A stretch of DNA of 33,609 bases from Sphingomonadales bacterium. GTDB taxonomy: Bacteria; Pseudomonadota; Alphaproteobacteria; Sphingomonadales; Sphingomonadaceae. Location of the stretch: positions 1 to 33,609 of the forward strand of contig JAIEOM010000083.1 of assembly GCA_019750455.1 (NCBI GenBank), read 5' to 3'. Below, one piece after another: positions 15,415 through 25,190 of the stretch. Each line of letters opens with the position of its first letter. The stretch's first letter is position 1. The position numbers were made by a program, and so were the translations under genes. Under the pieces are notes generated by a model. The model was not told the DNA's origin, did not search any database, and saw only the letters and a program-made list of their open reading frames with translations.

Positions 15415-16308
15415 ATGAGCCGCATCGCCAGCCTGCCGCTGTTCCACCAGATTGCCGGCCAACAGGTGCTAGTGCTTGGCGATGGCCCGGCGGCGGAGCC
15501 CAAGCGGCGGCTGGTCGAGCGGGCTGGCGGCGTGATCGTCGAGGACTTTGCCCGTGCTGTGGACGAAGGCGTGCGGCTGGCCTTCATCGCCTTCGAAGAC
15601 GCGCAGGCCTGCGAGGTCGCGGCGATCAACGCGCGCTGTGCGGGGATGCTGGTCAATGTCGTCGACCGGCCGGAATTGTGCGATTTTACAACGCCTTCCA
15701 TCCTTGACCGCGATCCCTTGCTGGTGGCGATCGGGACGGGCGGAGCATCGGCGGGGCTGGCCAAGCACGTGCGGCTGCGGCTGGAGCGGGTCTTGCCCGA
15801 AACGCTGGGTGCCTTGGCACGGGCGCTGGAGGCGGCGCGTCCTGCCTTGCGGGCCCGCTTTCCCGAGGGAGCTGAGCGGCGCCGCGCTGTGGACTCCGCC
15901 TTGGGCGAAGGGGGCCCGCTCGATCCGCTCGATCCGCATTCTTTCCAGCGGGTTGCCGCTTGGGCGGAAGGGGCGGAGAGCCCGGCGGCGGGCGCTGTTG
16001 TGGAACTTGTCCTGACCCATGCCGATCCCGAAGAGCTGACCCTGCGACAGGCCCGGCTGCTCGGCGAGGCCGATCTGCTGCTGCTGGACGGTGAAGTCCC
16101 CGCCCCGATCCTTGCCAGAGCGCGTGCGGATGCCGCACGCCGGATGTTTCACGTGAAACGGGCGAGCACGGAGGGGTCTGGAGGGGGTCTGGAGCGGGTT
16201 AAGACCGGGTCAGACGCGGGCAACGCCGGGTCTGGCGAGGGGCAGGATCCGCCTGGGGGGCTGACCCTGATCCTGCGTTGGCGACCAGGGGCCTGCCCTA
16301 GGGCCTGA
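15415..16308 (+). CDS. Precorrin-2 dehydrogenase / sirohydrochlorin ferrochelatase domain protein (CysG N-terminal type), with unusual C-terminal tail
   Basis: MSRIASLPLFHQIAGQQVLVLGDGPAAEPKRRLVERAGG...LVNVVDRPELCDFTTPSILDRDPLLVAIGTGGASAGLAKHVRLRLE; no full SAM-methyltransferase domain present. Confidence 0.9.
   Translation: MSRIASLPLFHQIAGQQVLVLGDGPAAEPKRRLVERAGGVIVEDFARAVDEGVRLAFIAFEDAQACEVAAINARCAGMLVNVVDRPELCDFTTPSILDRDPLLVAIGTGGASAGLAKHVRLRLERVLPETLGALARALEAARPALRARFPEGAERRRAVDSALGEGGPLDPLDPHSFQRVAAWAEGAESPAAGAVVELVLTHADPEELTLRQARLLGEADLLLLDGEVPAPILARARADAARRMFHVKRASTEGSGGGLERVKTGSDAGNAGSGEGQDPPGGLTLILRWRPGACPRA
16145..16160. promoter_or_regulatory. Putative parS site (ParB binding)
   Basis: TGTTTCACGTGAAACG, 15 of 16 positions of the palindrome TGTTTCACGTGAAACA; encodes (R)MFHVKR in the host CDS. 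Confidence 0.85.
16242..16276. terminator. Possible hairpin/terminator at the convergent gene junction
   Basis: Perfect inverted repeat GCAGGATC (16242-16249) / GATCCTGC (16269-16276) just before the cysG-like stop; no U-tract. Confidence 0.35.
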
Positions 16309-16311
16309 TCC

Positions 16312-17332
16312 TCACGCCGCTTGCAGCGCGGGTGTGCGCAGGCTGGCGAAATAGCCCGACATGGCCGCAATCCCCTTGTCACTCAGGGCGATGAAGGCGC
16401 GGCGGCGGTCGGCCGGATCGGGCACCCGCTGGAAGATGCCGTTTTCGACCATCTGCGTCAGCCACCGCAGCGCGGTTGTCGCCGGAACACCCGCCGCGAT
16501 GCACAGCGAGGTGACCGAGACCTGCGCCCCTTCGCCATGGGCGGCGGTGAGATCGAGCAGCATGTCCCACGCCGGATCGCCGAACAGTTCGGGATCGAAG
16601 AACCGCGCGCGCCTGCCGGTTGGCGATGATCTGGCGCACCAGTTGCGGATCGGGGAGCGGGTGATCGCTGGCCGGAGCAGGCGCGCCGAAGCTGCCCAGG
16701 GCCGAAGGTTCTGCCCCAGTATAATCGCGCCGGAACTCGCCGAAGACGCTGCCCCCGCCGGCCGCCGGGGCACGGCCTAGCCGGTCGAGCGAGTGGGCAA
16801 TCGCTTCGACCTGCTGGGAAAGACGCAGCAGCGCCACGCGGTCTTCCTCGCCCATTTCACGCAGGCGTGCGGCCCCCGCCTCACCCATAACCCGGCCCAC
16901 CGCGATCACCCGTTCGGCACGGCTGGGCGAGACGAGGATCTGCGGATTGGACTGGTCGAGCACCGCGAAGACATCATCGAGCCCGTCAAGATTTGTGGCG
17001 ACGATCAGCTTGGCCCCCGAACGCGCCACGCGCATATCGAGCCGCGCGAGGCCCGCCAGCATCATGCCGTCAATCCCGCGCGAGCCGGTGACCATGCAAT
17101 CGACCACTACCACATCGCCCAACAGCGCGATCGGCCCTTCGAGCAGCGCCCGCAGCGAACCGCCGTCAATCGAGCGGAACCCAGCCCCGCCAAGGTCGGC
17201 AGCGATCTGGCGGCGCAGACCTTCATCCGCACCGAAGATCGCAACGCGCGCCGGGAGGCCCGCGCCGTCATCGGCCACATCATAGGCGAAATCGGCCTGG
17301 GGGGATCGCGAGGGTGTAGCGTGGGTCAGCAT
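16312..17332 (-). pseudogene. Receiver-like N-terminal domain plus MarR/winged-helix C-terminal domain, interrupted by an apparent frameshift near 16604-16612
   Basis: N-part frame ends ...PQLVRQIIANRQARA; the C-part continues only in another frame as RFFDPELFGDPAWDMLLDLTAAHGEGAQVSVTSLCIAAGVPATTALRWLTQMVENGIFQRVPDPADRRRAFIALSDKGIAAM. Start taken as ATG 17332. Confidence 0.75.
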
Positions 17333-17354
17333 CGACTCGACTCCAACAATGTTG

Positions 17355-17369
17355 GAACGAGAATAGAAC
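17355..17369 (-). promoter_or_regulatory. Putative LexA (SOS) box overlapping a -10 element
   Basis: Minus strand GTTCTATTCTCGTTC (GTTC-N7-GTTC); TTGACC (17387-17382), 16 bp, TATTCT (17365-17360) lies within the box. Confidence 0.75.
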
Positions 17370-17446
17370 AAAACCGGATCAGGTCAAGTAAATCTGCGTA
17401 ATCGCTGTAGGATTACGTCTGCGTCAGCCCTTCACGCCCGCCGCTT

Positions 17447-18001
17447 TCACGGCCGGATCTCGATCACCGTCCCATCGGGCACGATGCGCCACAGCTCGGC
17501 GATTTCATCGTTGGACAGGGCGATGCAGCCATCGGTCCAGTCCCCCGGCACGCGGCCGAAGGGTAGCGAATTGGGCTGGCCGTGGATGAAGATCTCGCCC
17601 CCGGGCGAGCGCCCTTGCGCAAGGGCAAAGGCGCGGTCGGCGGCATTGGGGTAGGAAACTTTCAGGCTGAGGTGATAGGCGCTGCCGGGATTGCGGCCCT
17701 CGATCACATAGCGCCCCTCTGGCGTGCGTTCGTCCCCTTCGAACTGCTTGTGGCCCTGCGGCGCATCGCCGAATTGTAGCCCGCGCCATGCCTTGACCGG
17801 CTGCCCCCCGGCATAGGCGACCATCAGTCGTTCGGACTTGTCAACGATGAGGTAATCGACCTGCGTGAAGCGCCGTTCGGGGACGATCCGCGCAGCCTCC
17901 CGCGACAGTGGAGGGCGGGAAGACGGGGCCTCGGCCTGCGGCGGCGGGGGCGCAGCGCAGGCGGCGAGCAACAGCAGCAGCAGGAGCGCAAGGCGGGTCA
18001 T
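17447..18001 (-). CDS. L,D-transpeptidase (YkuD) family lipoprotein
   Basis: Lipobox LLLAAC; LIVDKSERLMVAYAGGQPVKAW...TPEGRYVIEGRNP...IFIHGQP...GDWTDGCIALSNDEIAEL. Confidence 0.92.
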   Translation of the reverse strand: MTRLALLLLLLLAACAAPPPPQAEAPSSRPPLSREAARIVPERRFTQVDYLIVDKSERLMVAYAGGQPVKAWRGLQFGDAPQGHKQFEGDERTPEGRYVIEGRNPGSAYHLSLKVSYPNAADRAFALAQGRSPGGEIFIHGQPNSLPFGRVPGDWTDGCIALSNDEIAELWRIVPDGTVIEIRP

Positions 18002-18050: not shown

Positions 18051-19340
18051 CTAGTCTACAAAGGGATCGCGCATCAGGATCGTGTCGTCGCGCTCCGGGC
18101 TGGTCGAGACCAGCGCCACGGGGCATTCGATCAGCTCCTGAATGCGCTGGATATACTTGATCGCGTTGGCCGGAAGGTCGGCATAGGACCGCGCGCCTGC
18201 AGTGCTTTCGTGCCAGCCGGGCATTTCCTCGTAGATCGGCTCGCATTCGGCCTGATCGGCGGCGTGGCTGGGGAGATAATCATAGACCTTCCCGCGCAGG
18301 CGGTAGCCGGTGCAGATCTGCACCTTCTCAAGCCCGTCGAGCACGTCGATCTTGGTCAATGCGATGCCGGTGACGCCGCTGATCGCGCAGGACTGGCGCA
18401 CCAGCACCGCATCGAACCAGCCGACGCGGCGCTTGCGGCCGGTGACGGTGCCGAATTCATGGCCCCGCTCGCCAAGACGCTGGCCGATCTCGTCTTCCAG
18501 CTCGGTCGGGAACGGGCCGGAGCCGACGCGGGTGGTGTAGGCCTTGACGATGCCGAGTACGAAGCCGGTCGAATTGGGGCCAAGGCCGCTACCGCTGGCC
18601 GCCGTGCCGCTGACGGTGTTCGACGAGGTGACGAAGGGATATGTGCCGTGATCGACATCGAGCAGCACGCCCTGTGCGCCTTCGAACAGGATCTTGGCGC
18701 CCGCGCGGCGGACCTTCTTCAACCGCTTCCACACCGGCTGAGCGAACTTCAGCACGAAGGGCGCGATCTCGCGCAGCTCTTCCAGTAGCGCGGCGCGATC
18801 CACCGGCGGCTGGCCGAACCCGGCGCGCAGCGCATCGTGGTGGGCGCAGAGGCGATCAAGCTGCGGCTCCAGCGTATCGAGATGCGCAAGGTCGCACACG
18901 CGGATCGCGCGGCGGCCGACCTTGTCCTCGTAGGCCGGGCCGATCCCGCGCCCGGTGGTGCCGATCTTGCCCTTGCCCGCCGCCGTTTCGCGCAGGCCAT
19001 CAAGGTCGCGGTGAAGCGGCAGGATCAGCGGACAATTGTCGGCGATGGCGAGGTTCTCGTCGGTGATCGTCACCCCCTGCCCTTCGACCTTGGCGACTTC
19101 ATCGCGCAGGGCCCAGGGATCGAGCACCACGCCGTTGCCGATCACTGACAGCGTGCCCGAGACGATGCCCGAGGGCAGGAGCGAGAGCTTGTAGGTCTTG
19201 CCGTCGATCACCAGCGTGTGGCCGGCATTGTGGCCGCCCTGAAAGCGCACCACGGCATCGGCGCGGCTGGCGAGCCAATCGACGATCTTGCCCTTGCCCT
19301 CATCGCCCCACTGGGCGCCGATCACGGTGACGTTGGCCAT
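18051..19340 (-). CDS. purA: Adenylosuccinate synthase
   Basis: [59 protein letters not shown]...[24 protein letters not shown]. Confidence 0.98.
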
Positions 19341-22244: not shown

Positions 22245-23831
22245 CTAAAACGCCAGCGCCTTGACCAGCTTCACGCCTTCGACCTTTTCGGCCTCGGCGA
22301 TCACTTCGGGGGTCAGGGCTTCGTCGAGGCTCAGCAGCAGCACCGCTTCCCCGCCCGCTTCGCGGCGGCCGAGGTTGAAGGTGCCGATGTTGATGCCGTG
22401 GCTGCCCAGCAGCGTCCCGATGCGGCCGATGAAGCCCGGCTTGTCGTCGTTGACGATGTAGAGCATGTGGCCCGACAGTTCGGCTTCGATGCCGATGCCG
22501 AAGATTTCCACCAGACGCGGCGCTTCGGTGCCGAACAGCGTGCCCGCGACCGAACGCGGCCCCTGCGCGGTTTCCACCGTGACGCGCACCAGCGTGTTGA
22601 ACGCGCCTTCACGCTCGTGACGCACTTCGCTCACCGCCAGCCCGCGTTCCTTGGCGAGGAACGGCGCATTGACCATGTTCACCGTGTCCGAATAGCGGCG
22701 CATGAAGCCCGCCAGCACGGCGGCGGTGATCGGCTTGCCGTTCAATTCGGCGGCCGCACCCTCGCGCTCGATCCCGATCTGGGTGAGGTTGCCGTGTGCG
22801 AGCTGGCCCACAAGGCTGCCGAGCTTTTCAGCCAGCGCCATGTAGGGCTTGAGCTTGGGGGCTTCCTCTGCCGAAAGGCTGGGGACGTTGAGCGCGTTGG
22901 TCACGCCGCCATTGACCAGATAATCGGCCATCTGCTCGGCCACCTGAAGGGCGACATTGACCTGCGCTTCGGTGGTGCTGGCACCAAGGTGCGGGGTGCA
23001 GATGAAGTTGGGCGCACCGAACAGCGGGTGATCGGCAGCCGGCGGCTCGGTCTCGAACACGTCGAGCGCGGCGCCTGCGACCTGCCCGCTTTCAAGGCAG
23101 TCCTTCAGCGCCGCCTCGTCGATCAGCCCGCCGCGCGCACAGTTGATGATGCGGATGCCCTTCTTGGCGTTCTCCAGCCGTTCGCGGCTGAGGATATTGC
23201 GTGTCTCGTCGGTCAACGGGGTGTGCAGCGTGACGAAATCGGCGCGGGTGAGCAGCGTGTCGAGATCGACCTTCTCGATGCCGAGTTCGATCGCGCGGTC
23301 TTCGGTGAGGAAGGGATCATAGGCGATCACCTTCATTCGCAGGCCGAGCGCGCGGCTGGCGACGATCGAGCCGATGTTCCCCGCGCCGATCAGGCCGAGG
23401 GTCTTGGCGGTCAGCTCCACGCCCATGAACCCGCTCTTTGGCCACTTGCCCGCCTGCGTCTGCGCGTTGGCTTCCGGGATCTGGCGGGCCAGCGCGAACA
23501 TCAGCGCGATGGCGTGTTCGGCGGTGGTGATCGAGTTGCCGAACGGGGTGTTCATCACCACCACGCCCTTGCCGCTGGCGTAGGGGATGTCGACATTGTC
23601 CACCCCGATGCCGGCGCGGCCGATCACCTTCAGATTGGTGGCGGCATCGAGGATCGCCTTGGTCACCTTGGTCGAGGAGCGAATGGCGAGGCCATCATAC
23701 TCGCCGATGCGGGCGATCAGCTGTTCGGGCGTTTCGCCGGTGATCACATCGACATCGCAGCCACGCTCTTCGAAAATGCGCGCGGCGTTGGGGTCCATCT
23801 TGTCGGAAATGAGAACTTTGGGACGGGTCAT
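22245..23831 (-). CDS. serA: D-3-phosphoglycerate dehydrogenase
   Basis: PKVLISDKMDPNAARIFEERG...TKTLGLIGAGNIGSIVASRALGLRMKVIAYDPF...INCARGGLIDEAAL; C-terminal ACT domain. Confidence 0.98.
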   Translation of the reverse strand: MTRPKVLISDKMDPNAARIFEERGCDVDVITGETPEQLIARIGEYDGLAIRSSTKVTKAILDAATNLKVIGRAGIGVDNVDIPYASGKGVVVMNTPFGNSITTAEHAIALMFALARQIPEANAQTQAGKWPKSGFMGVELTAKTLGLIGAGNIGSIVASRALGLRMKVIAYDPFLTEDRAIELGIEKVDLDTLLTRADFVTLHTPLTDETRNILSRERLENAKKGIRIINCARGGLIDEAALKDCLESGQVAGAALDVFETEPPAADHPLFGAPNFICTPHLGASTTEAQVNVALQVAEQMADYLVNGGVTNALNVPSLSAEEAPKLKPYMALAEKLGSLVGQLAHGNLTQIGIEREGAAAELNGKPITAAVLAGFMRRYSDTVNMVNAPFLAKERGLAVSEVRHEREGAFNTLVRVTVETAQGPRSVAGTLFGTEAPRLVEIFGIGIEAELSGHMLYIVNDDKPGFIGRIGTLLGSHGINIGTFNLGRREAGGEAVLLLSLDEALTPEVIAEAEKVEGVKLVKALAF

Positions 23832-25126: not shown

Positions 25127-25190
25127 GTATTCTCTCCTTGCAGAGAGCTCGCGCGGCGTTGGGACCGCGTGGCCCACGGGCGGCTTTAGA
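25127..25190 (-). ncRNA. Probable serC leader (cis-regulatory RNA, cf. Rfam serC motif)
   Basis: Minus-strand ...CCCGTGGGCCACGCGGTCCCAACGCCGCGCGAGCTCTCTGCAAGGAGAGAATAC-ATG: stem CGCGG/CCGCG, then CTCTC/GAGAG covering the GGAGAG RBS; precedes a serC-serA operon. Confidence 0.7.

Follow-up and report, generated by a model that had tools for sequence, protein, structure and literature searches.

The minus strand of one stretch of alphaproteobacterial DNA (33,609 nt, the whole of which is called the window here; contig JAIEOM010000083.1 of assembly GCA_019750455.1, Sphingomonadales bacterium) carries a gene for a receiver-like, winged-helix protein behind a promoter whose -10 hexamer lies inside a LexA-type box. 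The locus raises the question of whether a transcription factor is placed under SOS control, and how a factor of this build would be switched. Most SOS genes described so far act in DNA repair or in the arrest of division. If LexA controls a conserved transcription factor, the damage response of a large group of bacteria, abundant in the environment, would have a second tier that is still unmapped. The reading favoured here, at a probability of about 0.8, is a LexA-repressed (SOS) promoter predicted to drive a second-tier transcription regulator. On sequence grounds the gene is a new candidate member of the LexA regulon, unusual in that its product is a regulator whose receiver has decayed; it is not a new mechanism.

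Promoter and operator

The operator-bearing promoter is the single promoter found by a consensus scan of 16250-17500 (shuffles average 0.2). Hexamers TTGACC and TATTCT are spaced by 16 nt on the minus strand, and a leader of 22 nt (17333-17354, minus strand) separates the operator from the ATG at 17332. The first-pass annotation had placed a perfect GTTC-N7-GTTC over the -10, 22 nt before this ATG; its letters and coordinates are confirmed by direct reading (Table 1).

Table 1. Features of the regulator locus (window coordinates; domain assignments are predictions)
Feature	Position	Strand	Basis or remark
Regulator gene, pseudo-receiver and MarR-type winged helix	16312..17332	-	Frame broken near 16600-16608
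Winged-helix DNA-binding domain, residues ~224-334 of intact ortholog	16330..16663	-	HTH_27; spans the frame break
Pseudo-receiver domain, residues ~27-156	16865..17254	-	AlphaFold, Foldseek, active-site columns
Second GANTC, context CGAGTCG matching YGAKTCK	17334..17338	-	Ortholog leader counts
GANTC (CcrM-type), GAGTC in leader	17339..17343	-	Ortholog leader counts
LexA-type operator GTTC-TATTCTC-GTTC, GTTCTATTCTCGTTC	17355..17369	-	Read directly; ortholog conservation
-10 hexamer TATTCT, entirely within operator	17360..17365	-	Read directly and consensus scan
Conserved spacer block TGATC-N4-TTT	17370..17381	-	C at -8 in 73/75 promoters
-35 hexamer TTGACC	17382..17387	-	Read directly and consensus scan
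YkuD L,D-transpeptidase, upstream neighbour	17447..18001	-	PF03734
purA, adenylosuccinate synthetase, upstream neighbour	18051..19340	-	PF00709

Constraint in orthologous promoters extends beyond the box, to CTTGAC-N-TGATC-N4-TTT. Nearly all of the 75 located promoters retain CTTGAC, which was itself part of the locating pattern. Of 76 non-redundant promoters, 39 have GATC or another one-mismatch variant of GTTC at one further 11-nt interval ahead of the box; a degenerate third LexA half-site is suggested at most, and weakly, because the control offset of -22 gave similar counts. A 5' UTR hairpin (CCAAC-ATT-GTTGG) is confined to a subgroup near Porphyrobacter. The extended word TTGAC-N-TGATC-N4-TTTGTTCTA does not define a wider regulon, since the genome has this one site even at ≤3 mismatches.

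Conservation of the box

GTTC-N7-GTTC occurs three times in the window against 0.76 expected, a count reached in 4 of 100 shuffles, and 74 times in the whole genome against 62 for a reversed-pattern control. One box taken singly is weak evidence, because the genome count barely tops this control. A perfect box is present upstream of 29 of the 30 same-genus copies (window's own included), almost always 20-24 nt from the start; the remaining copy has GTTC-N7-GTTT. Orthologs from named genomes (Erythrobacter/Porphyrobacter, Novosphingobium, Altererythrobacter, Aurantiacibacter and others) hold it in 69 of 80 cases, either up to 300 nt ahead of the matched stretch or slightly within it, and a further draw from the same clade in 35 of 50 with either orientation counted, figures that overstate the number of independent events, as the orthologs share descent. 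Other 330-nt windows of the same loci contain a perfect box in 10 of 1,667 cases (either orientation). The box is thus conserved in orthologous promoters; its absence from them, which the first-pass annotation had named as a refutation, is not observed.

Spacing is specific. In ortholog upstream regions GTTC-Nk-GTTC is found in 68/80 at k=7 and in ≤4 at any other k from 0 to 20. A chance origin of the box is ruled out by this spectrum together with ortholog conservation. The inner N7 is found in 53 different versions among 76 non-redundant promoters (a set partly selected by pattern); the N7 is free and the half-sites are fixed, therefore selection keeps the two GTTC halves. The box could also be read as the mere conserved core promoter of a housekeeping gene, with GTTC kept for RNA polymerase and no damage control. 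Such a reading is very unlikely: the box does overlap the -10, the constraints are partly confounded and the -35 is conserved equally, but the -10 drifts (TATTCT, CATAAT, TACTCC, TCATCC) while the flanking GTTC halves stay, and a sigma-70 promoter requires no GTTC on either side.

About one-seventh of the named-genome orthologs are without a perfect box; mostly the second GTTC is GTTT, or the promoter is rebuilt. Distant homologs of the same GTDB family have a perfect box in 3 of 20 (either orientation), and the proposed control therefore characterises the Erythrobacter/Novosphingobium clade and does not extend to the family at large.

Probable assignment of the box to LexA

The LexA motif published for Alphaproteobacteria and Caulobacter reads GTTC-N7-GTTC (PMC7987155, PMC12700426). 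As in the LexA regulon of Caulobacter crescentus and other Alphaproteobacteria, the motif lies near the promoter and is here common to lexA, recA and uvrA (PMC12700426, PMC7987155); the present target differs in coding for a transcription factor instead of a repair or division function. No record of the regulator as a LexA target, and no paper on the regulator gene or on LexA regulons of Erythrobacter or Novosphingobium, was found among the open-licence PMC literature.

LexA is encoded in the genome (172 bits against a family cut-off of 110.95), with its own box GTTCCTTGTTCGTTC ~125 nt before the lexA start. RecA is present (equivalog match) with box GTTCCCTACTTGTTC. The motif also occurs by uvrA, rSAM_link_UDG (a repair-linked radical-SAM gene) and radA of the same genome. 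Genes resembling imuA and mmcB, for which NCBIfam gave no match, probably bear the box as well. Within the window, rmuC (start 581, minus strand) has the LexA-type box GTTCTCTATTCGTTC at 598-612, ~16 nt before its ATG, and the rmuC promoters of congeners hold a perfect box in 20 of 24; rmuC is a second predicted SOS gene of the window.

The regulator promoter is very likely under LexA control, as judged from ortholog conservation, k=7 specificity, the encoded LexA and the repair genes with the same box. The regulator is very probably made upon DNA damage in marine and freshwater Erythrobacter and Novosphingobium. Binding of the box by another protein, for example by the encoded regulator on its own promoter, has a small chance of being correct. 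Autoregulation is frequent among MarR-type proteins, and constraint past the box, in an extended word found once in the genome at ≤3 mismatches, suits a promoter-specific factor; however, MarR proteins usually bind palindromes, unlike 11-nt direct repeats, the spacing is strictly 7, and the same motif is found by lexA, recA, uvrA and rmuC.

Architecture of the regulator

Intact orthologs are ~320-350 aa in length. The AlphaFold model (56-sequence alignment; mean pLDDT 82.6, pTM 0.47) begins with a Rossmann-like alpha/beta domain (residues 29-156), from which a long helix (162-186) and then a disordered linker lead to a winged helix (224-334); at so low a pTM the arrangement of the domains is tentative. 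In Foldseek, CheY-type receivers rank first and MarR proteins next, and sequence profiles concur. The best match is the receiver RR468 (5uht_B; probability 1.00, TM-score 0.75 by target length). HTH_27 (PF13463) is recognised on the downstream frame of the window (24.7 bits, cut-off 22.2) and matches all 56 orthologs (E up to 0.1), whereas MarR (PF01047) matches 44 of them. PF01047 scores 18.2 bits, under its cut-off of 24.6, so the protein does not qualify as a stand-alone member of the MarR family. Neither Pfam nor NCBIfam has a model that covers the regulator in full length. The earlier label 'receiver-like/winged-helix' can accordingly be made specific: fold search and profile comparison give a CheY-type receiver and a MarR-type winged helix. 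A phage or defence origin was rejected (no PADLOC match, a single weak PHROG match).

Decay of the receiver and intact relatives

The first acidic position of the receiver (DD1) is Ala, Gly or Ser in 56/56 orthologs, and the lysine position is occupied by another residue in at least 50/56. Asp78 is kept in 54/56, Thr113 in 56/56 and the acidic DD2 residue in 49/56. The protein encoded in the window retains neither DD position. The full phospho-active set (DD, D, T, K) is not found in the regulator orthologs, and the Pfam receiver model matches just 4/56 of them even at E 0.1. A pseudo-receiver is a receiver by fold or homology with key catalytic residues missing (PMC12632262). By its active-site columns the domain is a pseudo-receiver, because the receiver fold and homology are present without DD1 and lysine, with Asp78 and Thr113 retained; the likeness to the bacterial pseudo-receivers of PMC12632262 lies in a receiver fold minus the full active-site set.

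Some phosphorylation may still occur, since Asp78 and Thr113 are kept. Retention of Asp78, Thr113 and DD2 would suit a functional receiver, in which a kinase phosphorylates Asp78 and LexA just supplies a conventional response regulator. This is unlikely in view of the uniform loss of DD1, the replaced lysine, the few matches to the Pfam model and the loss of both DD positions in the window's protein. Switching by a histidine kinase is improbable because DD1 and the catalytic lysine are lost; the regulator is probably not switched in this way.

Other alphaproteobacterial genomes encode proteins in which this winged helix is preceded by an intact receiver (Response_reg E 3.5e-20 and 4.9e-22). 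Profile-profile alignment (hhalign) of the regulator with intact REC-wHTH proteins gives a probability of 99.9 and E 2.2e-35 over 278 columns and both domains. On this similarity the regulator derives from a REC-wHTH response regulator with an intact receiver, which has since degenerated. Domain order is equal in the two groups and similarity is strong across both domains; the intact proteins (L259-L264) differ in having the complete set of residues (DDD, D, T, K) and in lacking a LexA box around the start of the frame. L259-L264 are themselves undescribed REC and MarR-type winged-helix regulators of other alphaproteobacterial families. The receiver is decayed in the inspected distant homologs of the family as well. 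Decay seems older than LexA control, or control was lost in distant lineages, because these homologs combine a decayed receiver with a perfect box in just 3/20.

The review of pseudo-receivers calls their activating and inactivating mechanisms a mystery and lists control via the amount made among the possible modes, few cases of it being known (PMC12632262). MarR is absent from the text of that review (PMC12632262), and the control named here is LexA. The regulator is a testable case of how pseudo-receivers are switched, the likely answer being a LexA-controlled amount. The best reading of the sequences is a control shifted from phosphorylation to LexA-gated synthesis.

Frame break

The frame of the window's copy breaks within the region of the winged helix, and the homologous winged-helix frame runs on to the stop at 16312. 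Both parts are ~80-85% identical to an intact ortholog. Other orthologs are unbroken except in a few draft assemblies, which break elsewhere (L161, G300, G375) and appear to represent draft errors or scattered loss. The break is probably a base error in a 289-contig draft or a very recent mutation, and not part of the mechanism. The first-pass annotation had named this gene as the one carrying the frameshift: the break itself is real, but it does not define the gene and is incidental to it, because it is private to one draft assembly. A programmed frameshift was rejected (relatives unbroken, other breaks at different places). It is doubtful, with the weight on the other side, that control is real and the gene nevertheless dead in this strain. 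The winged helix does lie in another frame; against this, both parts remain close to an intact ortholog and the promoter shows no damage; breaks are absent from nearly all relatives and fall at other places in the remaining broken copies, and in such a draft a base error is equally likely.

GANTC sites in the leader

GANTC is present between box and ATG in 64 of 75 orthologous leaders, compared with 14 of 139 controls from the same loci (further starts with a Shine-Dalgarno sequence before them). It ranks first of 256 NN.NN words in the leaders, at three redundancy levels, and is found in 32 of 42 leaders <60% alike. The form YGAKTCK, as given in PMC7987155, occurs on either strand in 50/75 leaders. 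Genes for GcrA and a RAMA-domain (CcrM-type) protein are present in the genome. In Caulobacter, methylated GANTC in promoters recruits GcrA (PMC3667746). LexA and GANTC sites can overlap (PMC7987155). The regulator promoter resembles GcrA/CcrM-controlled promoters (PMC3667746, PMC7987155) in that a conserved GANTC, in many cases of the YGAKTCK form, sits close to the start and genes for GcrA and a CcrM-type enzyme are present. Here GANTC adjoins the LexA box within the leader and does not lie inside the box. Damage and cell-cycle methylation may both act on the regulator promoter; a dual input is possible because GANTC is conserved in the leader just after the box. GANTC beside the operator makes this a defined promoter for crosstalk between damage and CcrM methylation.

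Distribution and gene neighbourhood

The regulator gene is found in most congeneric genomes. A profile search of 301 genomes of the GTDB family gives some match in 297, full-length and strong in the Erythrobacter/Novosphingobium clade. Matches outside that GTDB family are to single domains only; full-length copies were found in this one family. The conserved locus is marked by purA, which precedes the gene in the same orientation in 71 of 80 ortholog loci; the YkuD gene lies upstream on the same strand in 45 of 80. In two distant homologs (L214, L216) purA likewise ends just upstream. Elsewhere in the window a serC leader RNA (RF00517) is recognised at 25127-25179 on the minus strand (43.1 bits, gathering score 35).

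Proposed control

In undamaged cells LexA would occupy GTTC-N7-GTTC, in mutual exclusion with RNA polymerase; repression by occlusion is the natural reading because the operator holds the entire -10 hexamer. Upon damage, RecA would become active, LexA would cleave itself and the promoter would open, as in the known LexA/RecA mechanism, for which both genes are present. The product is predicted by profiles and structure modelling to be a MarR-type winged-helix protein with a helical linker and a pseudo-receiver. Its activity would be set mainly by the amount made, and it would repress or activate targets as a late branch of the SOS response. GcrA and CcrM would also tune expression with the replication cycle via the leader GANTC, as site conservation suggests. 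The joint picture (phospho-pocket lost, LexA-gated synthesis in place of the signal, GANTC and operator reading damage and methylation, a clade-specific delayed SOS branch) is tentative, and as a whole the odds are against it.

Further LexA-type boxes

The third box of the window (23169-23183, plus strand) lies apparently within coding DNA and is probably due to chance. Elsewhere in the same genome (L092, position 701; C278) GTTCCGTAAATGTTC stands immediately before a radical-SAM-like frame, possibly a further SOS gene; it adjoins a GTGAAAC word resembling a ParB site. At L002 (same genome, C69) GTTCCTGAAATGTTC and a second box are located between a gene for a ~225-aa S24-type LexA-like protein, possibly a second LexA-like repressor, and a divergent small gene.
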